Assembly (NCBI GenBank): GCA_024178355.1
Contig: JAMZNZ010000002.1
Location: 1,283,501-1,347,500 of the forward strand
Direction: 5' to 3'
Length of the DNA stretch: 64,000 nt
Source: Maricaulaceae bacterium EIL42A08
GTDB lineage: Bacteria; Pseudomonadota; Alphaproteobacteria; Caulobacterales; Maricaulaceae
Position numbers and translations under genes: made by a program. Of this stretch, positions 3,248-56,522 are shown in pieces (the stretch's first letter is position 1; every line of letters starts with the position of its first letter). The notes under the pieces are model-generated. The model worked only from the letters and a program-made list of their open reading frames with translations, searched no databases and was not told the origin of the DNA.

Positions 3248-3321
3248 GGGCTCGCGTAAGAATGGTGCGGGCTTATGAGTTGCAGCGACGCATTCTTGAT
3301 AGGCCGAGCAATCTTCTGACT

Positions 3322-3360
3322 TCACAGCATGGGTCCCCCGGATAAACCGGGGGATGACAA
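3322..3360. repeat. Left arm of 39-bp inverted repeat around GIY-YIG gene
   Basis: These 39 bp are the exact reverse complement of 3697-3735. Each arm contains its own hairpin: CCCCCGG and CCGGGGG separated by ATAAA (3335-3353). The arrangement resembles REP sequences around a mobile single gene. No target-site duplication was obvious. Confidence 0.9.
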
Positions 3361-3390
3361 TCGCGGAAAGGAGTGCGCTAAATTCTCCTC

Positions 3391-3687
3391 ATGGATGAGC
3401 GCGCCTACTTCGTATACCTGCTAGCTAGCCAGAAGAACGGAACACTGTATTGCCGCGTAACCAGCGACTTGATTGGCCGCGCATGGCAGCACCGTGAAGG
3501 CGAAATGCGAGGCTTCACTTCAAAGTATTCGGTAAAGCGACTGGTCTGGTATGAGCAGCATGCAGATATCCTGGAAGCCATTAAACGCGAAAAGCGGATC
3601 AAGAAATGGCCACGTCAATGGAAGCTCAATCTGATCGAAGAGCTCAACCCTGATTGGCGCGACCTCTATTTTGACCTAGAGCCATAG
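3391..3687 (+). CDS. GIY-YIG nuclease-fold protein, degenerate motif
   Basis: Small stand-alone GIY-YIG domain of 98 aa, of the UPF0213/YhbQ-like type common in alphaproteobacteria. The first motif is VYLLAS, followed by NGTLYCRVTSDL; related proteins usually have YIG where this one has YCR. Later conserved features are present: R and H in RAWQHREGE, the FTSKYSVKRLVWYE block, and the AIKREKRIKKWPR helix. The catalytic tyrosine is kept but the glycine after it is lost, so activity is uncertain. The gene sits between exact inverted repeats (3322-3360 and 3697-3735) in the gap between two convergent Tad genes, which suggests it arrived as a unit. AAGGAG lies rather far upstream of the ATG. Confidence 0.8.
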   Translation: MDERAYFVYLLASQKNGTLYCRVTSDLIGRAWQHREGEMRGFTSKYSVKRLVWYEQHADILEAIKREKRIKKWPRQWKLNLIEELNPDWRDLYFDLEP

Positions 3688-3696
3688 CCCCACCAC

Positions 3697-3735
3697 TTGT
3701 CATCCCCCGGTTTATCCGGGGGACCCATGCTGTGA
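3697..3735. repeat. Right arm of 39-bp inverted repeat
   Basis: Perfect inverted copy of 3322-3360, beginning 10 bp after the stop codon of the GIY-YIG gene. It could double as a transcription end for that gene through its GC-rich hairpin. A weaker relative (CAGCATGG followed by GCCCGGACGGGC) appears at about 3761-3782, possibly a decayed third copy. Confidence 0.9.
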
Positions 3736-3793
3736 CCCATAAAACAGGCTGACACAGCTCAGCATGGATTGCCCGGACGGGCCCAACCGAATA

Positions 3794-4282
3794 CTACCCC
3801 TCAGGCGGCGGGCTCATGGGCGGAGGGGGCGGTTCGCTCGCTTCCACTTTTTTTAATGGGAAGCGCTGTTTCAGCCAGCTGGAGACCAGTGTCTGGTCGA
3901 ACCGGAAATCGTCCGCAAGCGCGCGCAACTCTGCGGGAGCCCGGCCATCCTTCGACGCTTCAATCGCGCGGTAGAGCGCATAGAGCCGCAGATAGCCCTT
4001 CTCGTCACGCGACAGATTGGTGTCATCAAGCCCGGCGCAGACATCGATCAGCTTGGACAATCCGGACCGGCGCTTGCCTTCAGCCAGATCCACCACAGCC
4101 ATGGCTAGTGCCGGCTTCCAGCCACCGTCGGCGTATTTCAGGCGCTTGGGTACGGCGGACAGCTCACGCCGGGCGCGCTTCACATCACCTTCAGCAAGAG
4201 CGTCGAGCGCGTTATCAGCCGACTCACCAGCAATGCGCAGCGCTTCGCGCCGACGTTCTGCTGCTTTTGCTGAGCCAAACAT
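3794..4282 (-). CDS. Hypothetical helical protein at the end of the Tad operon
   Basis: No family recognised with confidence. The 162-aa product is charged and probably all helical, with repeated Ala/Leu/Arg heptad-like segments and a proline-rich tail (PPPPPMSPPPEG). There is no signal peptide or membrane segment, so it should be cytoplasmic. It lies about 75 bp downstream of tadC on the same strand and is the last minus-strand gene of the pilus cluster, so a role with the Tad platform or ATPase is plausible but only inferred from position. A TPR-like or DUF fold is possible. Confidence 0.65.
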   Translation of the reverse strand: MFGSAKAAERRREALRIAGESADNALDALAEGDVKRARRELSAVPKRLKYADGGWKPALAMAVVDLAEGKRRSGLSKLIDVCAGLDDTNLSRDEKGYLRLYALYRAIEASKDGRAPAELRALADDFRFDQTLVSSWLKQRFPLKKVEASEPPPPPMSPPPEG

Positions 4283-4357
4283 AATCTACCCCACACCGCG
4301 AAAGGACTGCCCCTCCGGCAAATCACCGTGCAAGGCTAGCGCGCCGAAGCGGCAACG

Positions 4358-20644: not shown

Positions 20645-20826
20645 TGATGGGCACCTGCTGCTTCAATTTTAGTCTTGAGGGTCATCGTAGGGTCCTCTCA
20701 TCTCTCTTCTTCTTGATCGCGCCTTAGCTAGCGCCAAATTGATCGGCTGAAAAGCCTTTGGCCTTTGCCTGCTGCACCTGCACAGGCTATGTCACGCGGC
20801 TTCTGGACCCTTTAGGACTTGATCAG

Positions 20827-23403
20827 ATGAGCGAGAGCACGCCCAGACCCTGGCGAGTGATGAAATTCGGCGGCGTCTCAGTCGCCGATCCGGCGCGGTG
20901 GACCACGATTGCAGAGCTGGCCAGACAGCGTCTGAAATCGGGGGATCGTGTGCTCATCGTGCACTCTGCGCTTGCCGGGGTCTCCAATGCGCTGGAAGCC
21001 CTGCCACAAGCGGCTTTGAACGGTCGGGGCGACGCTGAAGCCACCGCCATCAAGGACCGCCATCGCGCCTTTGCTGCAGAAGCTGGCTTGGATGCCGACC
21101 AAGCTCTGGCCGACCTGTTCGACACGCTCGACCGGCTGACTGCTGGCATTGCGCTGGTGGGCGAAGCTTCCCCGCGGGTGCGCGCCGAACTTTTGTCGCT
21201 GGGTGAGCTGATGGCCAGCCGCTTAGGGCTGGCCTGCCTTGAGGCTGAAGGTCTGACCCCGCACGCGCTTGATGCCCGCACCGCCCTGACTGCGACCGAC
21301 CCGGGCCGCGATGCGCGGGCCTATCTTGATAATGTTGTGGCCGACGGAGCCGACCCGGATCTGAGCGCCCAGCTTGAAGGGGCCGAGCTGGCGCTGACGC
21401 AGGGCTTTATCGCGCGCAACGCACGGGGCGAAACCGTGCTTTTAGGGCGCGGGGGTTCGGACACGTCAGCGGCTTATTTCGCTGCCAAGCTGGAAGCCGA
21501 TGAGCTTGAAATCTGGACCGATGTGCCAGGCCTGTTCAGTGCCGATCCGCGCCTGACCGATGGGGCGCGCATGTTAAAGGCGCTGACCTATCAGGAGGCT
21601 CAGGAGATCGCGACCATGGGCGGCAAGGTGCTGCATCCGCGCGCGGTGGGGCCGGTGCGCCGCGCCGGTGTGAAGCTGTCGGTGCGCTCCACCTTGCGCC
21701 CGGAGCTTGAAGGCACCGCCATCAGCGCCAATCCCGGCGACGACGCCCCGCGCCTGAAAGCCGTTTCGGTCAAAACCGGTGTGAAGCTGGTCGTCATCGA
21801 AGGCGCGAATATGTGGCGCCAGGCCGGCTTCCTGGCGGACATGTTTGCCTGTTTCAAAGCCTGCGGCGTGTCGGTGGACCTGGTCTCCACCTCGCAAACC
21901 AACGTCACCGTCAGCCTTGATCCTGACCCCGGCCTAGATGAAGCGCGCCTGAAGGCGCTGCGTGAAGCGCTCGCGCCGCTCGCCCGCGTCACCATCATCG
22001 ACAACGCCGAAGCGGTCAGCCTGTTGGGCTCTGGCATCCGGCGCATCCTGCATCAGCTGGCCCCGGCGCTGGAGATGTTCCAGGACAAGCCGATCCGTCT
22101 GGTCAGCCAGGCCGCTAACGACCTGAACTTCACCGTTGTGGTGGATGAGGACCAGGGCAAGGCGCTCGCGGCCCGCCTGCATGAGGAGCTGATCAGTTCC
22201 GCGCATGAGGGTCCGGTCTTTGGCCCCAGCTGGGCGGCCCTGACCGCGGCACCTAAGACAACTCCACACCGCTCTGCCCCGTGGTGGCACGCCAGGCGCG
22301 ACGCGCTGCTTGACCGGGCCCCACAGACGGGCGGGCGCTATGTCTATGACCTTGAAACCATTACCGCGCGCGCCAGCGCGGTCGCAGGCCTGACCAGCCT
22401 GTCGCGGGCCTTCTATGCGATGAAGGCGAACAATCATCCTGAGGTCCTGAAGACCGTCCGCGAGGCCGGATTGGGCTTTGAATGCGTCAGCCCCGGCGAG
22501 ATTGCGCGGTTGAAGTCGGTCTTCGATGACCTTAAGCCTGAAGAAGTGCTCTTCACCCCGAACTTCGCCCACCGTAGCGAGTATGAGGATGCAGTCGCCT
22601 TTGGCAGCTGGCTCACCATTGATGGCCTGCATCCGCTGGAAGCCTGGCCGGAGGTGTTCAAGGGCGCGAAGGTCATCCTGCGGGTCAATCCGGACCGCCC
22701 CCGCGGCCACCACGATCACGTCAAAACCGCCGGGCCCAAGGCCAAGTTCGGCATTCCGCTGTCTGACCTGAAAGCGGCCAAGGCCGCAGCCGACGCAGCC
22801 GGCGCCACAGTCATTGGCCTTCACGCCCATGCCGGGTCCGGCGTGACGGAGTCCAATCACTGGCGCGAGATCGGCGCGGTCCTGGCGAAAGCCGCCGAGA
22901 CCTTCCCGGACGTCACCATCCTGAATGTGGGTGGCGGGCTTGGCGTGCCTGAGAGCTTTGATGCACCGGTGCTGGACCTGAAGGCCGTGGACGACGACCT
23001 CGCCGCGCTTAAAAAAGCCCATCCTGGCTATGACATCTGGATGGAGCCGGGGCGCTACCCGGTCGCTGAAGCCGGTGTCCTGCTGGCCCCCGTCACCCAG
23101 ATCAAAACCGCCTTCGGCGCGCGCTTCATCGGGCTGGGCACCGGTATGAACTCGCTGATCCGGCCCGCGCTCTACGGCGCGCGCCACGAGATGGTGAACC
23201 TGACCCGGCTTGATCAGCCCGCTACAGGACTCGCCTCCATCGTGGGGCCGATCTGTGAAAGCGCGGACTTGCTGGGTGCCGATCGTCTGATGCCGGAAAC
23301 CCACGAAGGCGACGTCATCCTGATTAGCGAAACCGGGGCCTACGGTGCAGTCATGGCCTCACGCTACAATCTGCGTGAACCGGCCGATGAAGCGGTGATC
23401 TGA
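20827..23403 (+). CDS. Bifunctional aspartate kinase / diaminopimelate decarboxylase
   Basis: 858-aa fusion that joins the first step of the aspartate pathway to the last step of lysine synthesis. Residues about 11-440 are an aspartate kinase: MKFGGVSVADP opens the amino acid kinase domain, then GRGGSDTSA, WTDVPGLFSADPR and paired ACT regions near VVIEGANMW and LVSTSQTNVTVSLD. Residues about 475-858 are a LysA-type PLP decarboxylase: FYAMKANNHPEV with K533 as the PLP lysine, HAHAGSGV, NVGGGLGVPE, MEPGRYPVAEAG and GPICESAD. Such fusions are known in xanthomonads and related bacteria. An in-frame upstream ATG/TTG region exists, but the ATG at 20827 with AGGA upstream fits the kinase N-terminus. 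Monocistronic by position. Confidence 0.92.
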   Translation: MSESTPRPWRVMKFGGVSVADPARWTTIAELARQRLKSGDRVLIVHSALAGVSNALEALPQAALNGRGDAEATAIKDRHRAFAAEAGLDADQALADLFDTLDRLTAGIALVGEASPRVRAELLSLGELMASRLGLACLEAEGLTPHALDARTALTATDPGRDARAYLDNVVADGADPDLSAQLEGAELALTQGFIARNARGETVLLGRGGSDTSAAYFAAKLEADELEIWTDVPGLFSADPRLTDGARMLKALTYQEAQEIATMGGKVLHPRAVGPVRRAGVKLSVRSTLRPELEGTAISANPGDDAPRLKAVSVKTGVKLVVIEGANMWRQAGFLADMFACFKACGVSVDLVSTSQTNVTVSLDPDPGLDEARLKALREALAPLARVTIIDNAEAVSLLGSGIRRILHQLAPALEMFQDKPIRLVSQAANDLNFTVVVDEDQGKALAARLHEELISSAHEGPVFGPSWAALTAAPKTTPHRSAPWWHARRDALLDRAPQTGGRYVYDLETITARASAVAGLTSLSRAFYAMKANNHPEVLKTVREAGLGFECVSPGEIARLKSVFDDLKPEEVLFTPNFAHRSEYEDAVAFGSWLTIDGLHPLEAWPEVFKGAKVILRVNPDRPRGHHDHVKTAGPKAKFGIPLSDLKAAKAAADAAGATVIGLHAHAGSGVTESNHWREIGAVLAKAAETFPDVTILNVGGGLGVPESFDAPVLDLKAVDDDLAALKKAHPGYDIWMEPGRYPVAEAGVLLAPVTQIKTAFGARFIGLGTGMNSLIRPALYGARHEMVNLTRLDQPATGLASIVGPICESADLLGADRLMPETHEGDVILISETGAYGAVMASRYNLREPADEAVI

Positions 23404-23979: not shown

Positions 23980-24258
23980 CTAAACTGTTTCCGGAAACAC
24001 TATGTGCATGGTTGCCCGCAACTGCCCTTTCAGTTCCACGCCTCGCGGAATGACAGAACCGTCGGAATTGCGAAACAAAGGCCAGGTATTGGAGCTAACC
24101 GCTGGTAGTTTGGGATGCGCATCCAGATCATCTGCAAAGACGAACGACCAACGAACTCCATTCCATTTGACAGGTGCGTTAGGCCTCCTGTCAAAAATTG
24201 TAATATCAGCCTTAAAGGCCGGTGGGCAAAGCCGATCCCAGTCATGGATGTCATTCAT
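23980..24258 (-). CDS. Hypothetical protein, 92 aa, AT-richer than its surroundings
   Basis: No family recognised. The ATG at 24258 has GGAG 6 nt upstream, and the frame reads like a globular protein with many aromatic residues (WNGVRWSFVF, NTWPLF) and balanced charge. The order 'FKADITIF ... G.RW.F' loosely recalls small EF-Tu-domain-like proteins, but this is not strong enough to name. Upstream codons also look coding until stops near 24308, so the gene may be the remainder of a longer one cut by the repeat at 24333. Lower GC than neighbours suggests recent arrival. It could also be a chance frame. Confidence 0.45.
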   Translation of the reverse strand: MNDIHDWDRLCPPAFKADITIFDRRPNAPVKWNGVRWSFVFADDLDAHPKLPAVSSNTWPLFRNSDGSVIPRGVELKGQLRATMHIVFPETV

Positions 24259-24332
24259 GGCCCGCTCCAGCTCGTCAGAAGAATTTTGCCTACGAGGAAC
24301 CGTTTATCAAATACTCGCAAATACAGATTTCA

Positions 24333-24675
24333 CGCATGCCAACCGCCCGTCCCCCCTCCGCGAACGGAAGAAGTGGCGGGCGGCGGCGTCGCTCGGGGGG
24401 CAGGCCATCTCTGGCGTGATCCCTTTGCTAAGCACCAGACTTTGCAGTCTGATTTCGGCCGCGTCCGGTTTGACCCTTTCGCACTCCCGACCCCGTTTTC
24501 CCTGTGCGTGCGCAGGTCATCGAGCCCGGTGTCTGTGGCGTCCTTCCGCTGCCTTGCGGCCCCGGCGGTCTCGCCTCGACAAGAAAAGTAAAGCAAAGGT
24601 TAATTTTTTCGTCAAACAAAAACGAATCACTTCCTGTGGACAATTAAAAACCCCAAGAAGAATCAGTGATTAAAC
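24333..24675 (+). repeat. Dispersed non-coding repeat, copy A
   Basis: About 310-340 bp that align end to end with copy B at 26207-26555. Shared blocks are CGCATGCCAACCGCCCG (start), GGGCGGCGGC, a 17-nt hairpin at 24435-24451, a 26-nt block right after it with 24 identities (24451-24476), CTTGCGGC, and a TGTGGACAA 9-mer at 24635-24643. Open frames exist on the minus strand in both copies, but their reading frames go out of step through indels, so the repeat is not conserved as protein. Confidence 0.75.
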
Positions 24676-24741
24676 CTCGAAACTTTTTTTGCCAGCGACC
24701 AATGCGGGCCTGTCAAGGCAGGGCCAGGGCCTTCAAAAGGG

Positions 24742-25804
24742 CTAGTCGTGCAATACCGCGTCAACGCTCACCAGCTGCCAATCCAGCATCTGATCGAGAT
24801 AGGCATCAAAGAACGCCTTGTGGGATGAGCCTGTAATAACAAGCACATCGCCGCCCGGAGCATTGCCAGCCGCTTCAACCACATTGGCGGCCATGCGCAG
24901 GCCCCGCGTCTGCCACCAGGCCACATAGTGGCGCGCCACAGCGTCTTCGTCCGGGGTTGCCGCCGCCAGGCCAAAGTCGTTATTGATCGTCATCTGCTGG
25001 TAGGCGGGGCCATTGATGAAGCGGTAGCCCGCCACCATTCGCTCAGCCGAGCCCGGATAGCTTCGGGCTTCTGCCAGCATCTCGTCGGTCCCGGGCACAG
25101 CGGTTTGCCAGACGCTCTGGATGACCGAACCCAGCGTGTCAGGCGCGCGATGCTGAATGATATCAGCGGAGTGGTCATCCATGGCATGCACGCGCTGCAA
25201 ACCGAGGCGCACGGCAAGACGAACACCGATCTGGTTGTTTTCGTTGAGGGATTGAGTAAAGCGCGTGAAGCGGTCGGCCAGCGCCTCGGTCACACCATCA
25301 GCGGCCACACGCTCTTCGTCGCTCAGATAGGCCCACTGAACCGCCGCTGACCACGGCTCCCCCGCCGCAAAGAAGAGAAGCGCGAACTCACGGCGCTGCT
25401 GCGCGCTGGGGGCCTCGGGGAAGTTGGCCAGCACCGCGTCCATGCGGGCAACCGCGTCTGGAAAGCTTACACCCAGCGCCTCAAGGGCCGGGGCCGGGTC
25501 GAAGCAATAGCGGTCAGCCACGCCGGGATGGAGCGCATCATACTGGCGCAAGGCCTCACAGCCTCGTCCATCAATGGCTTCGATCGTAATGATATCAGGA
25601 CCATACGCCTCCCTCCAGCCGGTCAAGAACGAGCTCGATGTGAGCAGGCTCAAAGGCACCCTCTGGCAATTGCCGAAGATGGGGCGAGCCCAGTACCAGC
25701 GCCCGGGTCGGTTCACCGCCCAGCGGCTCCTGTACGCCTGAAAAATCAAGGCCGGGAGCGGCAGGTTGGAGGGTCAGGGCCGTTGCGGCCAGTAAAGTGA
25801 GCAT
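24742..25804 (-). pseudogene. Frameshifted exported protein, TraB/DUF5694-like
   Basis: Two overlapping frames together make one protein of about 350 aa. The first part starts at ATG 25804 with a signal peptide (MLTLLAATALTLQPAAPG) and runs through RALVLGSPHLRQLPE and IELVLDRLEGG. The second part begins AYGPDIITIEAIDGRGCEA and continues to the stop at 24742. One extra base in the GGAGGGAGG run (25608-25616) breaks the frame; removing one G gives LDRLEEAYGPDII, as expected. The layout (LGSPHL, then 'PD.ITIE', long helical part) resembles DUF5694/TraB-type proteins of unknown function. It is flanked by the two direct repeats A and B. It may be a real pseudogene or a sequencing error. Confidence 0.65.
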
Positions 25805-26206
25805 GATCGTCTTGTCTCCCAAGCTATCGACAAACCAGTACGAGCCCCTGGCCCATAGATTATCGGGGCTGAAGCTTCTTTATGGAAGCTGGATGCATTC
25901 GAAGACGGCTTTGGATGCACGCAGGCTGTTATTGTGTGACCCGATGGCGTGCAGCGACCCGGTGCGAAGTCACGTGCTGAATTGAGCGCCTGGCCGGGTT
26001 GGACCTGCGGGCAGAGAGCCTGCTTCAGCGGTCTAAGCGGGTGGCTTCTGTCTCGAAACAGGCAGCGCGCACATCAGACAGTCGCGTTCTGAGGACAGGC
26101 ACTTTCTGATCAACGCGGTAGGCTCACCTGCGCCCACCATAACAATTGCGGCAGGCACAAGACCGCCCGCGCTCACACTTCAAGTAAAAGGAAATAAAGA
26201 GTCTCG
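25805..26206. other. Gene-free stretch before repeat copy B
   Basis: No convincing gene, RNA or promoter element was found. Short frames on both strands are broken by stops, and their translations show no known motif. It separates the frameshifted gene from repeat copy B. Confidence 0.4.
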
Positions 26207-26555
26207 CGCATGCCAACCGCCCGGCCTTCCCCGTGGAGGGAGGGTGACGGGCGGCGGCCCAGCTTCGGGTCCTGAACCATTGCTGGCTCGGGGCCCTCAG
26301 CCAAGCATCGGGTTTTTAACCCCGATTTCGGTCGCTTCCGGTTTGACCCATCTGCTTCCCCGATCCCGTTGCCTTGCGCGAGCGCTTGGCCTCGGTCCCG
26401 GATCGCTGCGTCGTTCCCGCTCCTTGCGGCTCGGTGCGTCTCGCTGCGACAAATGCAGTTAAGCAATTATTCACCTTTGACACAAGCAAAACTGATTCGG
26501 TTTATGTGGATAAGCCAGATTCACGTTTTGAATCAGCGCAGAGAGATTAAAGAAA
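26207..26555 (+). repeat. Dispersed non-coding repeat, copy B
   Basis: Second, diverged copy of the element at 24333-24675, in the same orientation 1.87 kb away. Its hairpin lies at 26308-26324 and the conserved block at 26324-26349; TGTGGATAA (a perfect DnaA-box 9-mer) is at 26505-26513. Compared with copy A, hairpin positions 3/16 and 5/14 change from A-T to G-C pairs, so pairing is kept although bases differ. Confidence 0.75.
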
Positions 26556-26653
26556 ATTGGGCTTTTGACGCCCTGGATTTAGGTTGAACCGCAGTGTCAA
26601 CGAGCTGTCATATGTTTTTTGAGCGCCGCCACTCCTGCAAGGAGACACTGAAA

Positions 26654-26737
26654 CCCCGGCGCAAGCCGGGGCCTCGCGCCTTAAAAAGCGCCAAGTCCGG
26701 CAAAAGGTCCCGGATCCACGCTTCGCTCGTCCGGGAC
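26654..26737. repeat. REP-like palindromes
   Basis: Two GC-rich palindromes lie close together: CCCCGGC-GCAA-GCCGGGG (26654-26671) and GTCCCGGA/TCCGGGAC with a 15-nt loop (26707-26714, 26730-26737). They resemble intergenic palindromic repeats of alphaproteobacteria and may mark a site of repeat insertion downstream of the beta-oxidation operon. Confidence 0.5.
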
Positions 26738-26817: not shown

Positions 26818-29013
26818 TTACGCGGCAGCCTTCTCTGACCCAAAGCGGGTGTAGAAGGTTTCGCCTTTGCTCGCCATGTCGCGCAGGAGCTGCGGCACTT
26901 CGAACGGCTTGCCGTATTTGGCCGCCAGCTCATCGGCGCGGGTCACGAAGCTGGGTGCCCCGATCGTGTCGATGAAGCTCAGCACGCCGCCGGTGTAGGG
27001 CGCGAAGCCCCAGGCGAGGATGGAGCCGACATCGGCTTCGCGCGGGTCAGCAACGATGTTTTCTTCCATCGTGCGGGCCGCCTCGATGGCCTGGGCGTAG
27101 AGGATGCGATCCTTGATTTCTTCGACCGTCGGCTGCTCCTCGAGCAGCTTGCCGCCCGGTGCGAACTGATCAAGCTCATCCCAGAGCGACTTGCCTTCAT
27201 CGTTGTAAACAAAGAAGCCCTTGCCGTTCTTGCGGCCATAGCGACCCAGCTCATACATGCGCTCAATCACGGTGGCGTTGGGGGTGTCCTCAAACGCGTC
27301 GCCGAGATCCTTCTTGGTCTGCTGCAGCACCTTGTAGCCAAGGTCGATGGCGACTTCGTCCTGCAGGGTCAGCGGACCGACCGGCATGCCTGCCATCTTC
27401 GCGGCGTTCTCGATCAGCGCCGGCTTCACGCCTTCGGTCAGCAGATACATGCCCTGCTCGATATAGCGCATGACGCAGCGGTTGGCGTAGAAGCCGCGGG
27501 TGTCAGCCACCACGATCGGCGTCTTCTTGATCTTGGCCACGAAGTCGAGACAGAGCGAAACCGCCTTGTCGCCCGTCTTCTCGCCGACGATCAGCTCGAC
27601 CAGCATCATCTTCTCAACCGGTGAGAAAAAGTGCACGCCGATGAAGTTTTCCGGGCGCGAAGAGGCTTCGGCCAGCGAGGAGATCGGAATGGTCGAGGTA
27701 TTCGAGCCAAAGATCGCGCCTTCAGGCAGATGTTCTTCAGCCGCCTTGGTGATCTTGTGCTTGAGTTCGGAGTTCTCAAACACGGCCTCGATCACCAGAT
27801 CCACGTCTTTGAGCATCGAATAGTCGGTCGTCGCGGTGACCAGATTGGTCTTCGCGTCGGCCTTTTCCTGGGTCAGCTTGCCGCGCTTCACGCCCTTGGC
27901 GAAGTGCGCCGCGACATGGGCCTTGCCCTTGTCGGCGCCTTCCTGGTTGACGTCGATCAGCACCACTTCGATACCAGCCTGAGCCGAAACCGTAGCGATA
28001 CCAGCACCCATGAAGCCGGCACCGATGACGGCGATCTTGTTGACCTCGCCCTTGGTCTGACCGGCCGGACGGCGTGCGCCCTTCTCCAGAGCCTGCTTGG
28101 ACAGGAAGAGCGAGCGGATCATGTTCCGGCTTTCCGGGCGCATCAGCAGCTTGGTGAAGTAGCGGCTTTCGATACGCAGACCGGCGTCGATAGGAACCTG
28201 CAGGCCCTCATAGACGCATGACAGGATGTAGCGCTGGGCCGGGTAGTTGCCGTAGGTCTCTTTTAAGAGCATCGGGGATGCACCGCCGAAAACCTGCATG
28301 CCAGCGGGGTGGTAAGGGCCACCGCCCGGAATCTTGAACTTGTCCTGATCCCAGGGCTGCTTGCCGCCCATGGGGTCGGCTTTAACAAGCTCCTTGGCCT
28401 TGGCGACGATCTCAGACGCCGGAGCAACTTCGTGCACCACGCCCTGGGCCTTGGCCGTATCGGCATCGAGCTGTTTGCCCTGCAGCATGACCGGCGCTGC
28501 ATTCATCACGCCAATCAGGCGCGGCAGGCGCTGCGTTCCGCCACCGCCGGGCAGAACACCGACGAGGGCTTCGGGCAGACCCAGCTTGGCACCGGTGTCA
28601 TTCGCCATCACGCGGTAGTGGCAGGCGAGCGTCACCTCAAAGCCGCCACCCAGCGCCAGGCCGTTGATCGCCGCAGCAACAGGCTTGCCGCAGGTCTCCA
28701 GATTGCGAAGCGACTGGTTGAGGCGATAGGCGACCTCAAACAGGGCTTCCTTGGCTTCCTCTTCAGACTTACCGGCCAGCGCGCCCATGCCGCCGCCCAG
28801 CTCAGACAGGTCAGCACCGGCGCAGAAGGCTTTCTTGCCAGAGGTGATCACCGCGCCCAGAATCGCGTCGTCAGAGGCGATCTTTTCAACAAACTGGCCC
28901 ATCTCAGCCATGACGTCATTGGAAAGGACGTTCATGGAGACATTCGGGCTGTCGAAGGTGATGAGGGCAATGCCGTCGGCATCAACCTCGAATTTGAAGT
29001 GTGTGTAGGTCAT
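26818..29013 (-). CDS. Multifunctional 3-hydroxyacyl-CoA dehydrogenase / enoyl-CoA hydratase (FadB/FadJ type)
   Basis: 731-aa beta-oxidation enzyme. An N-terminal crotonase domain (about 1-190) has FCAGADLSELGG and the GGGFEVTLACHYRV oxyanion loop with the catalytic Glu region PEALVGVLPGGGGTQRLP. A central NAD-binding domain has GAGFMGAGIATVSAQAG, and the C-terminal dehydrogenase domains have FFSPVEKMMLVELIVG and the NRCVMRYIEQG segment. It hydrates enoyl-CoA and oxidises L-3-hydroxyacyl-CoA. It forms the alpha-type partner of the thiolase that ends 24 bp upstream; last gene of the operon. Confidence 0.92.
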   Translation of the reverse strand: MTYTHFKFEVDADGIALITFDSPNVSMNVLSNDVMAEMGQFVEKIASDDAILGAVITSGKKAFCAGADLSELGGGMGALAGKSEEEAKEALFEVAYRLNQSLRNLETCGKPVAAAINGLALGGGFEVTLACHYRVMANDTGAKLGLPEALVGVLPGGGGTQRLPRLIGVMNAAPVMLQGKQLDADTAKAQGVVHEVAPASEIVAKAKELVKADPMGGKQPWDQDKFKIPGGGPYHPAGMQVFGGASPMLLKETYGNYPAQRYILSCVYEGLQVPIDAGLRIESRYFTKLLMRPESRNMIRSLFLSKQALEKGARRPAGQTKGEVNKIAVIGAGFMGAGIATVSAQAGIEVVLIDVNQEGADKGKAHVAAHFAKGVKRGKLTQEKADAKTNLVTATTDYSMLKDVDLVIEAVFENSELKHKITKAAEEHLPEGAIFGSNTSTIPISSLAEASSRPENFIGVHFFSPVEKMMLVELIVGEKTGDKAVSLCLDFVAKIKKTPIVVADTRGFYANRCVMRYIEQGMYLLTEGVKPALIENAAKMAGMPVGPLTLQDEVAIDLGYKVLQQTKKDLGDAFEDTPNATVIERMYELGRYGRKNGKGFFVYNDEGKSLWDELDQFAPGGKLLEEQPTVEEIKDRILYAQAIEAARTMEENIVADPREADVGSILAWGFAPYTGGVLSFIDTIGAPSFVTRADELAAKYGKPFEVPQLLRDMASKGETFYTRFGSEKAAA

Positions 29014-56170: not shown

Positions 56171-56245
<75 letters not shown>

Positions 56246-56445
56246 GCATGGCCAATTTCTCGGCCACGAGAAGCGCTAGATAGCTCGGCTTCGATCTTGA
56301 TGCAACGGGTCGTACTGCACCGACTTGCACCTGGGGATCAGCGCTGACCGCATCACAATGTAAAAATGGAAATTAAGGCTGCAAATCCGGTGTCGACTGC
56401 CGATTGCCAAGCCCCAAGCCTTTGCGTATAAGCCCCGCCTCGGTT

Positions 56446-56522
56446 CGGAGTATAGCTCAGCCTGGTAGAGCACTGTCTTCGGGAGGCAGGGGTCGCAGGT
56501 TCAAATCCTGCTACTCCGACCA
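56446..56522 (+). tRNA. tRNA-Pro (CGG)
   Basis: 77 nt with encoded CCA. The acceptor stem pairs CGGAGTA with TACTCCG; the anticodon loop TTCGGGA has the anticodon CGG; the T arm is GGTTCAAATCC. It lies divergent from the tRNA-Gln gene, about 200 bp away. Confidence 0.95.

Follow-up and report, generated by a model that had tools for sequence, protein, structure and literature searches.

Predicted structured RNA genes with DnaA-box-like promoter elements beside fadJ in Maricaulaceae

Two diverged copies of an apparently non-coding sequence, copy A (24333-24675) and copy B (26207-26555), lie close together in a stretch of 64,000 nucleotides from Maricaulaceae bacterium EIL42A08 (hereafter the window, with positions counted from its first letter). 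Are they members of a dispersed repeat family, parts of a protein gene, or genes for an RNA, and what would such an RNA do? An original prediction, made from the letters alone, had proposed an undescribed repeat family with a selected structure, covarying hairpins and DnaA-box-like ends.

Two copies and their predicted transcription units

A DNA search of the whole 2.99-Mb genome aligned the two copies in the same orientation, with 70% identity over about 260 bases (E ~5e-19) and an ungapped core of 77 nt at 73%, which bears out their homology. The 17-nt hairpin was also as predicted, positions 3/16 and 5/14 being A-T in A and G-C in B, and its helix varies with pairing kept in an alignment of six copies from three genomes. 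The copies of two genomes of the same genus (G002 and G004) were found by DNA search, and then aligned with those of the window. The three A-A pairs of these three genomes are 94% identical from -66 to -1 and 74-89% identical along the RNA, against 21-44% in the flanks on each side; in five other pairs (A with B, and more distant genes) the promoter is 36-59% and the RNA 49-70% identical. This conserved island spans the box to the 3' hairpin and is read as a transcription unit, which on the minus strand of A shows, in order, a TTRTCCACA box, TTGACG, 17 nt, TTTACT and, after 6 nt, GTCG.

The TTRTCCACA box is the 9-mer of the original prediction read from the opposite strand. Both 9-mers (TGTGGACAA in A and TGTGGATAA in B, at the coordinates of the box elements in Table 1) are indeed present, but they are upstream promoter elements centred near -59 rather than the ends of the copies: they sit 32 (A) and 42 (B) bases inside the ends originally given, and similarity among the A copies of three species collapses just past them. 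No U-tract terminator was seen in most members, so that placement of the 3' end rests on conservation. It is near certain that A and B are paralogous genes, predicted on the minus strand, whose product is a non-coding RNA with a predicted length near 245 nt. The earlier interpretation was partly right, having missed that the functional strand would be the minus strand, and that the RNA is predicted to reach 850 nt in relatives.

Table 1. Predicted RNA genes, their promoters and neighbouring genes in the window
Feature	Coordinates	Strand	Basis
Copy A of the RNA gene; transcript of ~247 nt and 5' end at 24580, both predicted	24334-24580	-	Cross-species conserved island, covariation, shared 5'/3' ends
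Copy B of the RNA gene; transcript of ~243 nt and 5' end at 26450, both predicted	26208-26450	-	Shared 5'/3' ends, covariation
Predicted promoter of A: -35 TTGACG (24610-24615), 17-nt spacer, -10 TTTACT (24587-24592)	24587-24615	-	28-gene alignment; 94% identity among three species' A copies
Predicted promoter of B: -35 TTGTGT (26480-26485), 17-nt spacer, -10 TTAACT (26457-26462)	26457-26485	-	Extraction script and 28-gene alignment
DnaA-box-like element TTGTCCACA, centre ~-59 from predicted A start	24635-24643	-	TCCAC core -57 to -61 in 28/28 genes
DnaA-box-like element TTATCCACA, centre ~-59 from predicted B start	26505-26513	-	TCCAC core position
GANTC (CcrM-type methylation motif), -48 of A	24624-24628	.	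Motif scan
GANTC, -48 of B	26494-26498	.	Motif scan
Covarying hairpin of the original prediction, copy A	24435-24451	-	Both-side pair changes among six copies
Covarying hairpin of the original prediction, copy B, one internal mismatch	26308-26324	-	Six-copy alignment
3' hairpin of A, GCCGCCGCCCG...CGGGCGGTTGGC, most conserved part of the RNA	24338-24387	-	28-gene alignment A8
3' hairpin of B	26212-26258	-	28-gene alignment A8
DUF5694 gene between B and A; true start may be further upstream	24742-25749	-	Pfam PF18950, E 7e-16
fadJ-type 3-hydroxyacyl-CoA dehydrogenase, conserved upstream neighbour	26818-29013	-	Pfam

Elsewhere in the window, a 92-aa ORF without Pfam match lies directly downstream of RNA A (23980-24258, minus strand), and an 881-aa ORF (20758-23403, plus strand) combines an aspartate-kinase domain, an ACT domain and a diaminopimelate-decarboxylase-type domain, and looks like a bifunctional lysine-pathway enzyme. 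Two tRNA genes occupy opposite strands at 56174-56519.

Distribution among relatives and genomic place

An RNA model built from the 3' part of six same-genus copies (R1) matched 18 of 61 relatives at E <=1, several of them weakly, and, with the limit set at E <=0.01, 26 of 137 family genomes; in the genus of the window, four of 15 genomes matched at E 0.01 and the other 11 gave no match. A promoter model (R2), which covers a different stretch and is not wholly independent, having been trained on genes found with R1, reached 31 of the 137 family genomes at E <=0.01, namely the 26 of R1, at E <=1e-6, and five weak ones. Among 398 sampled genomes of the order, 25 matched R2 at E <=0.001, all but one of them in the family (24), the exception being G240 at E 5e-4. 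The six copies of R1, and the 28 genes behind a further model (R3), match themselves by construction. In the window's own genome, the DNA search, R1 and R2 all gave two copies only.

Extraction from the RTCG after the promoter to 4 bases beyond the 3' hairpin motif yielded 48 entries and 28 distinct genes, from 25 of the 26 R1-positive genomes, the remaining one (G080) being dropped by the promoter filter though a box and promoter are visible there. Most hosts carry one gene per genome, and a pair occurs in three genomes of the same genus (G000, G002 and G004). A pattern scan of named genomes returned 41 stretches, of which 20 belong to the family; 19 of these gave extracted genes, and the twentieth (L115) failed the promoter filter. 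None of the 21 non-family stretches and one viral stretch matched R2 at E 0.1, and two of these 22 matched R1 weakly (L112 at E 0.0027, L105 at E 0.038); after these tests they were taken as chance matches rather than members. The named hosts of the pattern scan are Oceanicaulis, Maricaulis (M. maris DSM 4734, M. parjimensis and M. alexandrii among them), Hyphobacterium and Marinicauda salina, genera that NCBI places in Maricaulaceae, which presumably corresponds to the family sampled in the genome searches. As far as searched, the RNA family appears confined to Maricaulaceae. Three further genomes of the window's genus (G006, G014 and G007; loci L176, L174 and L175) show a diverged 3' hairpin in the fadJ-to-LysR region (R3, E 1e-5, 1e-5 and 0.002 over 18 loci), with a partial promoter match in G007 as well; they were excluded from the member count, and are perhaps strongly diverged orthologues.

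The genomic place of the gene is largely constant: for 24 of the 28 genes fadJ lies upstream, 0.2-3.3 kb away and on the same strand. The four genes without a near fadJ comprise two close to a contig end (G004), one with a flank of 1 kb only (G123), and one (G009) whose fadJ is about 137 kb away. Because this neighbour is kept, the locus would be inherited in place rather than mobile, and with one gene per genome in most hosts the notion of a dispersed repeat family has to be given up.

Structure, modules and promoter

Does the RNA itself bear marks of selection? In two alignments, each scored with a structure derived from that same alignment, pairing changes exceed the controls. The first, made by MAFFT from sequence alone, comprises RNAs of 292-381 nt (A5, 12 of the 17 Maricaulis genes, five long ones being omitted); it gave an RNAalifold structure of 108 pairs, 30 with changes on both sides, and 86 double-change cells, whereas the shuffles give 35.6 (sd 4.8), all 500 falling short of 86, and slid partners give 6-19. 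Similarly, five same-genus RNAs (A4, which omits copy B of G002 owing to an insertion) gave 21 such cells against 9.8 (sd 2.3), again with 0/500 shuffles and with 2-5 for slid partners. The count of further pair types stayed within the shuffle range (142 of 500 shuffles for A5 and 90 of 500 for A4 reach the observed value). Helix 19 of A5, the 3' hairpin in Maricaulis, is 98% paired. GNRA tetraloops, a type of loop known to dock, cap 107 of the 280 hairpins predicted over the 28 RNAs; for shuffled sequences the figure is 7.0 of 228.6. Folding z-scores range from -0.49 to -8.51 (10-30 shuffles per RNA) and are weak in several members, so that folding energy alone would not be convincing for every one of them. 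The original prediction would have been undone if these two copies were the only ones and the pairing changes were due to chance; there are indeed just two in this genome, but relatives occur in 26 of 137 family genomes and the changes exceed the controls.

The RNAs are 237-850 nt long over the 28 distinct genes. Tandem Repeats Finder reported 4.5 copies of an 87-nt unit in G121 and 1.9 copies of a 184-nt unit in G116, and in a whole-RNA alignment G120 differs from G121 by a gap of exactly 87 nt plus two indels of one base each within modules; a longer block is absent from G118 at this module site. Copy B of G002 has three 3' modules by R1, though none by Tandem Repeats Finder. Self-comparison revealed repeats in G120, G121 and G116 and none in G118, copy B of G002, G022 and G036, so that tandem duplication is limited to some members, and the longer RNAs seem to have arisen partly by duplication of modules. 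The predicted fold of the G121 RNA has about three hairpins per 87-nt unit, two of them tetraloop-capped. Separately from the RNA copies, many short direct and inverted repeats surround the locus in G002 (L039, 8683-14136).

A DnaA-box-like site stands at a fixed position at the promoter of all 28 genes. Its TCCAC core starts at -60 or -61 in 26 genes; the two exceptions, with -57 or -58, both have a predicted start that is ambiguous by a few bases. Since the extraction demanded a TCCAC no more than 75 nt ahead of the -35 element, and a 17-nt spacer (TTGNNN-N17-hexamer), the presence of the box is partly by construction and its position is not. Half of the genes (14/28, all from Maricaulis) carry two more TCCAC cores upstream at exact 21-bp steps, making three in all. 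Relative to the numbers expected from 400 kb of G110, DnaA-like sites are far in excess (48, in 27 of 28 genes, vs 0.22), as are exact TTATCCACA (8, in seven genes, vs 0.01), GANTC (33, in 17 genes, vs 4.8) and full CtrA boxes of the form TTAA-N7-TTAA (4, in four genes, vs 0.01), these gene counts not being independent because the 28 genes are related. GANTC lies at -48 in all six A and B genes of G000, G002 and G004. The window copies have one-mismatch forms of the CtrA box, and with full boxes in four genes only, CtrA control is unlikely to be a general feature. The two-box pattern was found in four of eight genomes searched, every time solely at the RNA promoter. In one Maricaulis locus (L093, 4518-4574), a reported tandem repeat consists of three TTATCCACA-type boxes, spaced with a period of 21 bp and immediately preceding the RNA promoter.

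What would bind there? A class I activator is positioned near -61.5. The resemblance of the boxes to TTATCCACA makes DnaA the leading activator candidate. Many boxes depart from the DnaA consensus (TTGTCCACG, TTTTCCACC), and for this reason another protein may bind instead; for DnaA as activator of the RNA gene we see an even chance. DnaA is described as activating transcription in Caulobacter, with TTATCCACA as the consensus box (PMC8203912).

Competing explanations and meaning

Comparison of the members shows a predicted sigma-70-type promoter on the minus strand with a box near -59, a GC-rich RNA of many GNRA-capped hairpins with compensatory changes, a conserved 3' hairpin, tandemly duplicated hairpin modules in some relatives, and inheritance in place beside fadJ. 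The explanation that we favour, by a little over even chances, takes A and B as paralogous structured RNA genes whose product would be multivalent and shape-based, under DnaA-type control. A DnaA-type activator would bind near the class I position and tie expression to the replication cycle, while GANTC (CcrM/GcrA), plus CtrA boxes in a few species, would add timing. The RNA would act by shape and valency, not by a base-pairing seed: repeated GNRA-capped modules may dock one protein many times, or each other, in the manner of a scaffold or titrating RNA, and A and B may be two separately tuned copies. The scaffold or titrator reading is suggested by the kept ends and promoter, the drifting interior, the gain of whole modules and the GNRA loops, and the function by shape and valency, taken by itself, is tentative, with a chance somewhat short of even. 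A more specific proposal, in which helically phased DnaA would switch on a replication-coupled RNA of duplicable GNRA-capped modules, is quite unlikely; the modules would assemble with one another or with many copies of one protein, and their number would determine how large or how multivalent the resulting RNA-based particle is.

Among the other explanations, a cell-cycle antisense RNA like CcnA of Caulobacter crescentus, whose control would be linked to CtrA/DnaA and which would pair with mRNAs, ctrA or gcrA for instance, is unlikely, though it has its attractions: CcnA too is an alphaproteobacterial non-coding RNA, described as an RNA of the cell cycle whose promoter contains a CtrA box (PMC8959179), and the GANTC sites and full CtrA boxes counted above are regulator motifs of the same kind. 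By that description, however, CcnA sits in the replication origin (PMC8959179). The RNA studied here differs in this respect: in G110, the single Maricaulis genome that was profiled, its locus is ruled out as the origin, GC skew being positive in ten samples from 0 to 1.43 Mb and negative or about zero in ten beyond, with the RNA at 0.61 Mb and hemE at 3.03 Mb of 3.14. Moreover, the interior sequence and the length of the RNA change fast, and inspection by eye showed no unpaired stretch shared by all genera. It is very improbable that the DNA rather than the RNA matters, as a datA-like DnaA-binding or titration site, or as a replication element with incidental transcription; phased DnaA-like boxes occurring nowhere else in the eight genomes searched would fit such an element, but compensatory changes and GNRA loops act on RNA, the position of the box is tied to the promoter, and skew and hemE in G110 place the origin elsewhere. 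A cis-acting leader of a downstream gene is highly improbable: in G009 a LysR gene does start 241 nt downstream on the same strand, but within flanks of up to 3 kb a LysR gene follows on that strand in nine of 28 genes only, at 241-2901 nt, and DUF5694 comes after B but before A.

Three readings retain next to no probability. Sponge RNAs of the CsrB/RsmZ type have repeated hairpins and evolve fast, and the modular, fast-evolving, multi-hairpin build of the RNA is like theirs, but CsrA (PF02599) was found in none of six genomes searched, as far as the Pfam model reaches (three of 14 control genomes were positive), which leaves a sponge for CsrA/RsmA almost certainly wrong; the explanation favoured above does, however, include a sponge for some other protein. 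A repeat-bearing protein gene on either strand, equally remote, could draw on the 87-nt unit being a multiple of three, on open frames exceeding shuffles (antisense in G120 and G121, sense in G117 and copy B of G002), and on long repetitive frames in the 850-nt RNA of G121 (L091, 3319-4312), of 262 aa antisense and of 208 aa sense, the latter passing the RNA end. These frames have no Pfam match, nor have the minus-strand ORFs over A and B, no consistent ORF was found across members, and sense-strand ATG ORFs closed inside the RNA do not exceed 95 codons, half of the genes (14/28) having none; together with covariation, the frame-breaking single-base indels in the G120/G121 modules and the 184-nt unit of G116, this led to the rejection of a coding role, in agreement with the non-protein claim of the original prediction. 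A decayed mobile element or a REP/MITE-like repeat could be argued from two diverged copies and a GC-rich palindromic 3' hairpin; a total of two copies in the genome, the fixed place beside fadJ and the conserved promoter speak against it, and its probability is negligible.

Is the RNA a known one? Rfam holds models for GOLLD, ROOL and OLE, and none of these matched in scans of the window, of L091 or of seven relatives' loci. Rfam 15 gave only two tRNAs at or above gathering over the whole window, five sub-threshold matches at E <=10 in 24250-26700, none on the RNA copies, one sub-threshold match (E 0.53) in L091 of G121 (3300-4300), and none at the loci of the seven relatives. 6S RNA (RF00013), also a stand-alone structured RNA gene, was rejected: in all six genomes searched, the window's own included, it is a separate gene matched elsewhere, with no match at the RNA locus. 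In the titles and abstract openings of open-access papers that treat RNAs or cell-cycle regulators in connection with Maricaulis or Oceanicaulis, with subscription journals mostly outside, the RNA is not described. That the family is apparently undescribed and that its RNA structure is under selection, as originally proposed, is upheld by the lack of an Rfam match and by pairing changes beyond the controls.

GOLLD, ROOL and OLE are described as large ornate bacterial RNAs with elaborate conserved structure and poorly understood functions (PMC12286853), and the RNA reported here is similarly long (up to 850 nt), with an elaborate conserved secondary structure. It differs from them in starting at about 240 nt and in a length that varies partly by tandem modules, and from GOLLD and ROOL, which occur in phages and prophages and often near tRNA islands (PMC12286853), by its place beside fadJ; the single viral pattern match had no support from R1 or R2. 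Bacteria have few large structured RNAs, most of them obscure in function, and the RNA adds an apparently undescribed family to them, present in named marine relatives of Caulobacter, Maricaulis maris among them. The position of the box and the 21-bp phasing at the promoter make a sharp, testable prediction, and the gain of whole modules by close species offers a natural length series for asking what module number does.
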